A stretch of 33,491 bases of DNA from Pseudomonadota bacterium (lineage in GTDB: Bacteria > Pseudomonadota > Gammaproteobacteria > Steroidobacterales > Steroidobacteraceae): positions 1 through 33,491 of the forward strand of contig CAUJHX010000001.1 of assembly GCA_963204795.1 (NCBI GenBank), read 5' to 3'. The notes below the pieces were generated by a model. It did no database searches. It was given only the letters and a program-made list of their open reading frames with translations, and was not told where the DNA came from. The stretch's first letter is position 1, and every line of letters starts with the position of its first letter. A program made the translations under genes and the position numbers. This document shows positions 24,294 through 27,006 of this stretch, piece after piece.

Positions 24294-26180
24294 TCACACT
24301 TGCGCGAGATTGCCCTTGTGCTCGAGCCATTCACGCCGGTCGCCCGCGCGCTTCTTCGCGAGCAGCATGTCCATCAGCTGATCCGCCTGATCCCCGGCAT
24401 TCACCGTGAGTTGCACCAGCCGTCGCGTGCGCGGATCCATCGTCGTTTCGCGCAGTTGCGAGGGATTCATTTCGCCCAGCCCCTTGAAGCGCGTGACGAC
24501 CGGCTTCGCGCGCGCCTTCTCCGCTTCGAGCCGCTTCAGGATTGCATCGCGCTCGGCTTCATCGAGCGCGTACCTGACACTCTTGCCCGCGTCGATGCGA
24601 AAGAGCGGCGGCATCGCGACGTGCACATGACCATGCGTCACGAGCGGGCGGAAATGCCGCAGGAACAGTGCGCAGAGCAGCGTCGCGATGTGCTGACCGT
24701 CGGAATCGGCGTCGGCGAGGATGCAGACCTTGTGGTAGCGCAGCTCGGAGAGATCGGCCGAGCCCGCGTCGATGCCGAGCGCGACACTGATGTCGTGCAC
24801 CTCCTGCGAGTTGCCGATGTCGCGCGCATCGACTTCCCAGGTGTTCAGGATCTTGCCCCGCAGCGGCATGATCGCCTGGAATTCACGATCGCGCGCCTGC
24901 TTCGCCGAGCCGCCGGCGGAGTCGCCTTCCACGAGGAACAGTTCCGAGTGCACGGGATCCTGCGAGGTGCAATCGGCGAGCTTGCCCGGCAGTGCCGGCC
25001 CGCTCGCGATGCGCTTCCTCTGCACGCGCTGCGCAGCCTTCAGCCGCTCCTGTGCGTTTGCGATCGCAAACTGCGCGATGCGCTCGCCGGCGTCCGGATG
25101 CTGGTTGAGCCACAGCGCGATCGCATCCTTCGTGTAATTCTCGACGAGCTGCGCGGCATCGCGCGAGCCGAGCCGCTCCTTCATCTGTCCGGCAAACTGC
25201 GGTTCGCGGATCTTGATCGAGAGCACAAAACTCACCCGGTCCCATACGTCCTCGGCGGTGAGCTTCACGCCGCGCGGCACCAGATTCCTGAACTCGCAAA
25301 ATTCGCGTACGGCGCTCACGAGCCCGGCACGCAGACCATTGACGTGGGTCCCGCCGTCCACCGTGGGGATGAGGTTGACGTAGCTTTCGGCCACCGCCGC
25401 GCCGCCGCCCGGCACCCAGGCAAGCGCGTACGACACGGAGTCGCTGTCACCGTCGCGCTTGCCTGCAATAGGCTCGGTCGGCAGCCGCTCGACATCGCCC
25501 AGTTCGTCGTTGAGGTAGGCGCCGAGGTCGCCGGTGAAAAACCACTCGTCCTGCTCGCCGCTCGTCTCGTTCGTGAACTTCACGCGCAGCCCGGGGCACA
25601 GCACCGCCTTTGCCTTGAGCACGTGTCGCAGCTGCGGAACCGAGAATTTCCCGGCGTCAAAGAACTTCGGATCGGGCCAGAAGCGCACGGTAGTACCCGT
25701 ATTGCGCTGCCCCACCGCGCCGATCACTTCGAGCTTCGAGGCGACCTTGCCGTCCTTGAAGCTGATGTTGTATTCCTTGCCACCGCGGCGAATCCAGCAC
25801 TCGAGATGGTTCGACAGCGCGTTCACCACCGATACACCCACGCCGTGCAAGCCGCCCGAGAACTTGTAGGCGGTGTCCGAGAACTTCCCGCCCGCGTGCA
25901 GGCGCGTGAGAATCAGTTCGACACCACTCACCTTCTCTTTCGGGTGGATGTCGACCGGCATGCCGCGGCCGTTGTCGATGACTTCGAGCGAACCGTCCTT
26001 GTAGAGCGTGACTGCGATCTCGTCGCAATGGCCGGCCAGCGCTTCGTCGACGCTGTTGTCGATCACCTCGTGCGCGAGGTGGTTCGGGCGGCTCGTGTCC
26101 GTGTACATCCCCGGCCTGCGCCGCACGGGCTCGAGACCGGTAAGGACTTCGATGTCGGAGGCGTTGTACGTCTGGCTCAT
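24294..26180 (-). CDS. parE: DNA topoisomerase IV subunit B
   Basis: ATPase and TOPRIM subunit of topoisomerase IV. It has 628 residues (E. coli 630). The GHKL ATPase domain shows RPGMYTDTSRPNHLAHEVIDNSVDEA, with the NSVDE motif binding Mg-ATP, then DNGRGMP and GGLHGVGVSVVNALS. The TOPRIM domain has EGDSAGGSAKQ and DADSDGQHI; DADSDG is ParE-like, where GyrB has DADVDG. FKGLGEM is also present. The size lacks the long insertion of gammaproteobacterial GyrB. ATG at 26180 has no ribosome-binding site; an extended -10 lies 12 bp upstream, giving a predicted leader of about 6 nt. parE and parC are separated by 55 bp. Confidence 0.97.
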   Translation of the reverse strand: MSQTYNASDIEVLTGLEPVRRRPGMYTDTSRPNHLAHEVIDNSVDEALAGHCDEIAVTLYKDGSLEVIDNGRGMPVDIHPKEKVSGVELILTRLHAGGKFSDTAYKFSGGLHGVGVSVVNALSNHLECWIRRGGKEYNISFKDGKVASKLEVIGAVGQRNTGTTVRFWPDPKFFDAGKFSVPQLRHVLKAKAVLCPGLRVKFTNETSGEQDEWFFTGDLGAYLNDELGDVERLPTEPIAGKRDGDSDSVSYALAWVPGGGAAVAESYVNLIPTVDGGTHVNGLRAGLVSAVREFCEFRNLVPRGVKLTAEDVWDRVSFVLSIKIREPQFAGQMKERLGSRDAAQLVENYTKDAIALWLNQHPDAGERIAQFAIANAQERLKAAQRVQRKRIASGPALPGKLADCTSQDPVHSELFLVEGDSAGGSAKQARDREFQAIMPLRGKILNTWEVDARDIGNSQEVHDISVALGIDAGSADLSELRYHKVCILADADSDGQHIATLLCALFLRHFRPLVTHGHVHVAMPPLFRIDAGKSVRYALDEAERDAILKRLEAEKARAKPVVTRFKGLGEMNPSQLRETTMDPRTRRLVQLTVNAGDQADQLMDMLLAKKRAGDRREWLEHKGNLAQV

Positions 26181-26192
26181 GAGGCGGCGCGG

Positions 26193-26201
26193 ATTCTAGC
26201 A
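26193..26201 (-). promoter_or_regulatory. Extended -10 promoter for parE
   Basis: The minus strand reads TGCTAGAAT (26201-26193), a TGn-extended -10 with one mismatch to TATAAT. It is followed by a GC-rich 12-nt stretch and the parE ATG. The +1 would be near 26186, leaving about 6 nt of leader. The -35 region falls inside the first heptamer array and has no TTGACA-like hexamer. Confidence 0.45.
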
Positions 26202-26213
26202 GACGCTGCGCGC

Positions 26214-26255
26214 GCTACGGGCTACGGGCGACGGGCTGCGGGCTGCGGGCAAGAG
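26214..26255 (+). repeat. Left heptamer array of an inverted pair (six 7-bp units)
   Basis: Six consecutive 7-bp units fit the pattern GCNNCGG: GCTACGG twice, GCGACGG once, GCTGCGG twice, with a last divergent unit GCAAGAG followed by GCG. Every unit begins GC. It pairs in inverted orientation with 26362-26403, matching 38 of 42 positions. The array covers the -35 region of the parE promoter. Confidence 0.8.
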
Positions 26256-26361
26256 GCGCGGTGTCATGCGGCGACGGGCGTTGAGAGCGCCGAGGGGCGA
26301 CGGATGAAGCGAGGCGACCGCGACACTTCCGATTCTGACGACATCATGCGCCGCGCGCCGC
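26256..26361. other. 106-bp spacer between the inverted heptamer arrays
   Basis: GC-rich sequence with no credible gene, promoter or ribosome-binding site. The 10-20 bases next to each array are partly complementary as well (GCG followed by GCG/CATG-containing sequence on both sides), so the foldback may extend a little. The centre is unique in this window. With the arrays it makes up most of the 235-bp parE-DUF3501 gap. Confidence 0.5.
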
Positions 26362-26403
26362 CTCTTGCCCGCAGCCCGTAGCGCGTCGCCCGTAGCCCAC
26401 AGC
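26362..26403 (-). repeat. Right heptamer array of an inverted pair (six 7-bp units)
   Basis: Read on the minus strand there are six 7-bp units beginning GC: GCTGTGG, GCTACGG, GCGACGC, GCTACGG, GCTGCGG and the terminal GCAAGAG followed by GCG. The order and terminal unit match the left array, so the two can form a 42-bp stem with four mismatches around a 106-bp loop. It begins 12 bp past the DUF3501 stop codon, so it may also serve as a terminator or RNA-stabilising structure for that operon. Confidence 0.8.
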
Positions 26404-26415
26404 GCGCTGGGCGCT

Positions 26416-27006
26416 TCACCCCGTCTGCAGATCCTCGACCAACGCGCGACGCGTATCGTCGGCGACCAGGACGCTGTGCGAATACTGCGGATGATCGATG
26501 CCCGCGCGGAGCGCGGCAGCGCCCGCGCGCAGTGCAGCGATCATTGCATCGGTGAGCTCGAAGCGCAGGAAATGCACCGCGGAAGTCTTCTCCTCGTTCT
26601 CGCGTTCGAGGTCCTCGTCGGCAATCGCAAATACGCGCTCGTGACCGCCGACCTGCACCCAGCAGCGATCCTCGATGCCGCGCAGCTCCGTGAGGCGCTG
26701 CGCCCGCTCGCGCGGGTCGACGAACTCGATCAGCAGCGTCACCTTCCAGTTGCGCCCTTCAGGAATCAGCGGGTTATAGGCGCCGAGTTCGTCGGCGATG
26801 CCTTCAGCCTCGAAGATGCGCTCGACGCGCAGCATTTCCTGCACCTGGTACTGGATCGTCAGGCGGTCCTCGAAGCACCAGGTGGCGTTCGGACCCACGG
26901 CGAGCTGGCGGGCGCGCTTGTGCGCGATCACGCGCTCGCGGAATGCCGCCCGCTCGCGCGCGTACTGTTCGAGCGGGAGCAGGTCCGCTGGTGTCAGCGC
27001 CGTCAC
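26416..27006 (-). CDS. DUF3501 family protein
   Basis: A 196-residue soluble protein with no assigned function. I recognise it as DUF3501 from the N-terminal block LTPADLLPLEQYARERAAFR, the CFEDRLTIQYQVQEMLRVERI segment (about 44-64), and its operon partners. It is rich in Arg and Glu and has two cysteines (Cys44 and one near residue 114), too few for an Fe-S cluster. The C-terminal half (about 120-180) looks like an alternating alpha/beta fold. GTG at 27006 overlaps the stop of the Fe-S gene (GTGA, 27003-27006), so equimolar coupled synthesis is likely. The rubrerythrin, CCG-domain Fe-S protein and DUF3501 set is one I recall from other proteobacteria; a shared redox or peroxide task is inference. 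Confidence 0.85.
   Translation of the reverse strand: MTALTPADLLPLEQYARERAAFRERVIAHKRARQLAVGPNATWCFEDRLTIQYQVQEMLRVERIFEAEGIADELGAYNPLIPEGRNWKVTLLIEFVDPRERAQRLTELRGIEDRCWVQVGGHERVFAIADEDLERENEEKTSAVHFLRFELTDAMIAALRAGAAALRAGIDHPQYSHSVLVADDTRRALVEDLQTG

Follow-up and report, generated by a model that had tools for sequence, protein, structure and literature searches.

The stretch of DNA analysed here (the window, 33,491 nt) is contig C1 of draft genome G000 (3.17 Mb, 287 contigs). The gap between its DUF3501 and parE genes holds two inverted arrays of 7-bp words, with the following features.

24294..26180, minus strand: parE, topoisomerase IV subunit B (DNA_gyraseB, Toprim, and HATPase); its start codon is 33 nt beyond arm 1
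26214..26255, plus strand: arm 1, five GC-phased heptamers and then the head word GCAAGAG
26249..26258, plus strand: head GCAAGAGGCG of arm 1, the conserved inner end of the array
26256..26361, minus strand: 106-nt loop, matching part of the 'K core' repeat
26359..26368, minus strand: head GCAAGAGGCG of arm 2
26362..26403, minus strand: arm 2, five GC-phased heptamers and then the head word GCAAGAG
26416..27006, minus strand: DUF3501 gene (PF12007, E 7e-71); the element begins 12 nt past its stop codon, where the initial annotation had also placed one arm

Arm 1 (26214-26255, plus strand) reads GCTACGG GCTACGG GCGACGG GCTGCGG GCTGCGG GCAAGAG, and arm 2 (26403-26362, minus strand) reads GCTGTGG GCTACGG GCGACGC GCTACGG GCTGCGG GCAAGAG. 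The initial annotation had described two inverted six-word tracts that match at 38 of 42 positions, both end in GCAAGAG, and lie 106 bp apart, and this description is exact. A repeat finder lengthens the arms to 49 nt (92%; 26210-26258 and 26359-26407), and Tandem Repeats Finder gives a period of 7 at both. The pattern of four GC-phased words followed by GCMAGA occurs twice in the window, at these two arms, and not once in 100 dinucleotide shuffles. The pair is able to fold as a long stem, as had been claimed (RNA fold of 26205-26415, z = -8.4 vs shuffles). The loop is 76% identical over 107 columns to one K core copy (L159) and 73% over 95 to another (L117). There were no Rfam matches in the window at the gathering threshold, nor in 12 element loci at E 0.5.

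The proposal that one arm covers the -35 region of parE could not be substantiated; a sigma-70-like site was looked for and none was found. The link of the element to parE is incidental, because it is DUF3501 that the element follows, and two relatives (G001 and G005) have none before parE. A TAGAAT-like box directly before parE (window 26181-26200) is, by eye, kept in four relatives, with the DNA upstream differing. In G002, the DUF3501-parE gap (L085) holds a copy of another hairpin family, with GGTGCCGGGTTTTCGGTTATTCGGTTATT arms, that has further copies at L182-L191 (G002) and L162-L181 (G004).

The two tracts are the arms of one 'heptad hairpin', with about four 7-bp words per arm, just past a stop codon; the loop-side end of each arm is a fixed head, GC[C/A]AGAR-GCG. 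The initial annotation had suspected a repeat family, and members are indeed dispersed across G000 and its relatives. Their form is (GC-N5) about four times, the head, a loop, and the inverse. Most G000 arrays run toward a common inner end, GGGC[A/C]AG.., and an inverted partner is present for many. G000 contains GGGCNNCGGGCNNCGGGC at 213 places (its reversed control is uninformative, as it matches the same arrays), and CGGGCAAGAG at 44, with 2 for the reverse. An excess of arrays over shuffled DNA had been put forward as a check; in 371,672 bases of G000 pieces, partly chosen for holding matches, so that densities are not genome averages, there are 18 arrays of at least four units as against 0 after block shuffling. 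Three-unit runs are at chance (11 vs 12), and 100 kb of contig C182 of G000 contains no array of at least four units.

An array pattern, GGGCNNC, proved to be tied to one dialect and wrongly implied that relatives lack arrays; a pattern based on the head showed otherwise. The genomes compared are mostly drafts, with genes called by a purpose-written codon-usage script. The short hairpin GCCAGAAGCG-N(2-32)-CGCYTCTKGC is present in G000, G001, G003, and G005, all members of a single genus, and in none of 52 genomes from elsewhere (reversed controls 0). The short head hairpins that were inspected are flanked by GC-phased heptamers, with a different word in each genome. Two GC-phased words plus the head are found 51 times in G000, 24 times each in G001, G003, and G005, 6 times in G004, 4 times in G002, and once in G006, as against 0-1 for the reversed controls; of the 52 genomes outside the genus, 21 have one or two matches, which is the control level. 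With three words plus the head, the counts are 46 in G000, 19 in G001, 23 in G003, 21 in G005, 3 in G004, 4 in G002, and 0 in G006 (six of seven genus genomes).

The head-based search outside the genus finds only elements carrying this head. In the family beyond the genus, three words plus the head were matched in 19 of 193 genomes, in 18 of them once and in G435, of a different genus, 8 times. At least five of 10 places in G435 hold true inverted pairs, whose arms each have about four GCTGTGA-type words and carry the same head, GCCAGA, and G473, from the genus of G435, has one element. Because the genus of G435 has real members, the heptad-hairpin design is older than one genus or has passed beyond it, with a patchy distribution. 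A GTDB-wide pattern scan returned two stretches, of which L106 resembles coding DNA and L107, by eye, lies at the end of a gene that has an array in the same position in G000:C10. In a class-wide scan for four GCKNRSR words, 30 of 369 genomes matched, mainly with perfect heptamer arrays; the reversed control is informative in part, since arrays can match it too. Degenerate GC-phased heptamers were also seen in distant class members, at L354 (G392) and at L358 (G179), the latter an inverted pair without the GCCAGA head. In G016, of another genus of the family, L202-L211 are intergenic palindromes with GGTGCCGGGGTG and AAAAGGGGACATGCCTATTT arms.

Exactly four units precede the head in 35 of 47 arms in G003, 14 of 26 in G001, 17 of 36 in G005, and 28 of 95 in G000, where arrays longer than four words are common. 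Perfect or near-perfect arrays of 11-19 units exist as well, and those such as the GCGACGG run in C10 (19 units) show that slippage also acts on arrays. The whole family might have arisen through heptamer slippage and biased mutation, 7 bp being a favoured slippage length, with functionless growth and drift. Perfect heptamer arrays occur in other Gammaproteobacteria, and an earlier survey is reported to have found heptamers the commonest long repeats in most of its genomes (PMC4679880). However, neighbouring G000 words are only weakly alike at most positions, and slippage can neither give dozens of loci a common dialect nor preserve the head and the count of four. It explains the long perfect arrays alone, and we consider it a very improbable origin for the family. 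A further loop class between heptamer arrays, of ~250-500 nt with GGAAAGGTTCCCGCATTT-like and GCATAAGCGGCGAAAGCACAATC-like parts, was seen in G000 at L099 (C221), L053 (C137), L054 (C142), and L102 (C249), in some cases with perfect arrays of 11-18 units next to it. Such arrays form an end of contigs C10 and C98, and so they probably broke the assembly.

Among 457 units from 95 arms in G000, positions 1, 2, and 6 are one base in 99, 98, and 94%, C fills position 5 in 81%, a purine (A or G) fills position 4 in 90%, and position 3 is open, giving GC-N-R-C-G-[G, A or C]. The corresponding words are GC-G-N-R-C-R in G001, GC-K-N-R-S-R in G003, which mixes GCGAACA-type and GCTTAGG-type arms, and mostly GC-T-N-A-G-A in G005 (position 5 is A in 84% of 164 units). 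Distinct words account for 92 of 398 run-collapsed units in G000, slightly fewer than the 106 (97-116) expected under independent positions. G000 arms have three 3-unit strings in common (2.7 expected) and no 4-unit string, and block copying between loci is not supported as the source of the common word of G000. In the relatives, shared 3-unit strings number 23 in G005 (5.1 expected) and 4 in G001 (0.18 expected). One G000 locus, L297 (G000:C39), has a flank that is 100% identical over about 1.4 kb to that of L283 (G003:C39). Such identity between two species bins means that one bin holds DNA of the other, a cross-binned contig in one draft; L297 was left out of the G000 word-sharing and letter/ruler counts and kept in the arm-pair, orthology, and placement counts.

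Paired arms were compared where both had GCCAGA or GCAAGA heads and at least three words. Across 21 proper pairs in G000, agreement at positions 3-7 is 60%, as compared with 58% across elements, and 454 of 3000 permutations are as high. The term 'inverted copies' used in the initial annotation thus suits the window pair (38/42) but not the G000 family, in which paired arms are no more alike than unpaired ones at variable letters; that G000 arms are inverted copies of each other is accordingly not supported. Paired arms are more alike in G003 (18 pairs; 0.683 vs 0.511; 0 of 3000 permutations as high) and in G005 (12 pairs; 0.722 vs 0.593; 41 of 3000), and this likeness is in good part sub-family identity at position 6. 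The five pairs in G001 show no extra likeness. G000 words are near-random draws from a degenerate motif, neither copied between loci nor mirrored between arms. Copying can thus be seen in the relatives but not in G000, because G005 and G001 share blocks and G003 and G005 have similar paired arms, whereas G000 has neither.

Where places are orthologous, the element and its head are kept in several species, in some cases along with the loop and the count of 4+4 words, but the word is spelled differently. The dialect is GC-N-R-C-G-G in G000 and GCTNAGA or GCGAACA in relatives. Among the retrieved elements (23 in G005, 25 in G003, 20 in G001, and 58 in G000), to which the orthology count is limited, 10 of 23 in G005 are matched, by orthology of both flanks, to an element in G000, G001, or G003; for 8 of the 23 a partner lies in G000. 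The chance of at least 8 shared G005-G000 places is ~1e-4 if the 58 G000 elements are spread over ~830 gaps, and 0.015 at 15% per gap. L273 (G005) and L296 (G000) both have 4+4 words, the head GCCAGA, and the loop sequence TCGCGAGCCAGCGC, and all of their words differ. At one shared place with a similar loop and 4+4 words, G005 has GCTAAGA GCTTAGA GCTTAGA GCTTAGA and G000 has GCTATGG GCTATGA GCTACGG GCTGCGG. At L277/C19 and L268/C36, a G000 arm carries the relatives' word GCTTAGG beside the head and its own words farther out. Relatives differ at orthologous loci by whole 7-bp units, in keeping with the indels in multiples of 7 that had been predicted. Empty sites are found at other places in G004, and those in G004, G001, and G005 show that a given place can do without the element.

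The K core is a structured repeat of 120-177 nt (L112-L161) with copy-specific complementary arms, found in all seven genus genomes. A 177-nt copy from G004, used as the query, has relatives in 7/7 genus genomes and short pieces in 6/33 others. Many of the copies in G004 are 84-92% identical to it. By eye, K core loci are common to species (e.g. the murA end), and the arms in other species are ~20-35 bp long, nearly complementary within a copy, and different between copies. The loci searched have no Rfam match. We aligned 16 of 17 copies tried (L116, without an anchor, was left out), obtaining 53 pairs, of which 37 have changes on both sides. Of 847 cells, 773 are Watson-Crick, 13 G-U, and 16 A-C, as compared with 56 each of G-U and A-C for shuffled partners. 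As G-U is as rare as A-C, though selection on RNA would tolerate G-U, pairing in the K core resembles that of DNA, or else the outcome of one arm being repaired from the other, which is a known mechanism.

Small inverted pairs dispersed between genes are typical of REP, BIME, and REPIN elements, each REP having a GTAG-like 5' tetranucleotide and its own imperfect palindrome. A REPIN- or MITE-like mobile repeat would be spread by a transposase acting in trans, with copies settling after genes, where they do least harm, and then decaying. The dispersed inverted pairs of short conserved units, the empty sites, the near-identical K core copies of G004, and some 3-unit blocks in common in G005 and in G001 are all consistent with such an origin. 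The MITE criterion of near-identical multiple copies with empty sites fits the K core in G004; the heptad arms of G000 are not block-shared, though empty sites are seen. No precise element boundary was found. PF01797 (RAYT-type Y1 transposase) has no match in the seven genus genomes (4 of the 21 searched and 5 of 14 controls have one), and heptad arms, unlike REP, BIME, or REPIN units, are tandem words. The suggestion in the initial annotation of mobility through a REP-type transposase finds no backing in these counts, nor in the words of G000, which keep their frame although they are not shared as blocks between loci. Places are, moreover, common to species, and we judge a mobile origin decidedly unlikely.

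We classified the gaps that hold 126 elements in four genomes: 35 are convergent, 63 tandem, 10 divergent, and 10 at a contig edge, and 8 elements lie inside called genes. Comparison gaps of at least 80 bp in G000 and G005 (149) comprise 14 convergent, 94 tandem, and 41 divergent. Relative to these, convergent gaps are enriched and divergent gaps depleted among the 108 two-sided elements (Fisher 5e-6 and 2e-4). The median distance from an element is 8 nt to a stop codon (n=133) and 44 nt to a start codon (n=83). This placement would suit a transcript-end RNA hairpin, folding from either strand, that ends, insulates, or protects transcripts, chiefly between convergent genes, and folds are strong (z -6.0 to -8.7). 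Good folding is, however, expected of every inverted repeat. The window element has no T tract or terminator call (none in 26100-26500 in a scan limited to loops of 3-8), and the variable letters of paired arms do not covary in G000. Mismatches in heptad arms show no excess of G-U over A-C on the plus strand (40 vs 49 in G000, 24 vs 31 in G003; strands not oriented by gene), which also counts against an RNA-stability element. An RNA hairpin explains the place and not the free letters; it is a possible explanation, though an unlikely one.

Inverted heptamer arrays in Xanthomonas, with the repeat GGGAATC, are reportedly the subject of a study by Rehm et al. (2015). According to the accessible portion of the literature on these (GGGANTN)n repeats, there are 186 and 183 arrays per genome, mostly of four units, with 70-75 inverted pairs; they are intergenic, at a mean of 28 nt past the upstream gene, and 83% are at places common to two species (PMC4692102). 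The present arrays are likewise degenerate G-rich heptamers, intergenic, in inverted pairs, and near the 3' end of the upstream gene. They differ in their word, and the same portion of text reports no fixed head in Xanthomonas and one word for both species, not dialects. A G-quadruplex was proposed there (PMC4692102). G4 motifs occur here in 28/58 elements of G000, 0/23 of G005, 2/25 of G003, and 2/20 of G001, and are not a family property; a G-quadruplex as the general function was rejected because the relatives' words have no G runs. The Beggiatoaceae TAACTGA heptamers, as far as the available text describes them, are intergenic arrays too, of 2-6 copies, mostly before start codons, and differ in being uniform in word and, save for one exception, direct rather than inverted (PMC4679880).

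A drive like that of uptake signals, in which the words bias DNA uptake or exchange and a dialect spreads by recombination, would account for species dialects and for inverted pairs near gene ends. Both are seen in heptad hairpins and, in the part of the source available, in the DNA uptake sequences (DUS) of Neisseriaceae, whose dialects of a short word differ at few positions and whose inverted pairs are at gene ends or terminators (PMC3630211). The same text describes DUS as short words, present in thousands of copies and not arranged in tandem degenerate arrays, with a tested uptake role (PMC3630211). Heptad hairpins occupy tens of places per genome, not thousands, with degenerate words, and we regard an uptake role as extremely improbable. 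In open-licence literature, we found no paper with these words, nor such an element beyond those of Xanthomonas and Beggiatoaceae. Inverted heptamer arrays after genes are already known from Xanthomonas, going by the portion of that study available (PMC4692102), and heptad hairpins are a variant of them. As far as that literature was searched, the novelty lies in the head, the ruler of four words, and dialects that differ between species at common loci.

Our preferred reading, held tentatively and with somewhat less than even confidence, is that the words are a tandem degenerate recognition motif for a putative factor, most likely read on DNA. A fixed frame with free letters, combined with the head, the ruler, and a dialect that shifts in concert at many loci, is the trace expected of a factor that reads sequence. 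The same design with another word in a second genus (G435) also counts in its favour, as does pairing in the linked K core, which points to DNA rather than RNA. The putative factor would act in trans and read the words (GC-N-R-C-G-G in G000) in a 7-bp register, and the inverted pair would present two arrays head to head at a gene end. If the preferred letters changed, all loci would be rewritten over time, giving species dialects. Observed are the anatomy, the head, and the four-word ruler, along with the position, the shared loci, the dialects, and the independence of words in G000; we infer reading by a factor, action on DNA, and a role at gene ends. Several findings weigh against recognition: relatives share blocks above chance and have partly similar paired arms, both to be expected from copying or pairing; heptad arms make very good RNA folds; and there are slippage in perfect arrays, empty sites, and 8/126 elements inside called genes. 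Among the three readings offered initially, a protein-binding array, with a putative reader, fits best.

A fuller proposal, which we consider unlikely, is a gene-end punctuation system, in which the factor would count four 7-bp words per arm by the fixed head, the preferred word would be species-specific, and orthologous sites would be rewritten in place, on DNA and not RNA. Selfish copying and slippage are the usual accounts of common bacterial gene-end repeats. Neither predicts that places, frame, head, and often word number are kept while the spelling changes across loci, with the words of G000 uncopied. With its word, head, and ruler, the element is a defined object with which a reader can be sought, and one to set beside the inverted heptamer arrays of Xanthomonas for comparison.
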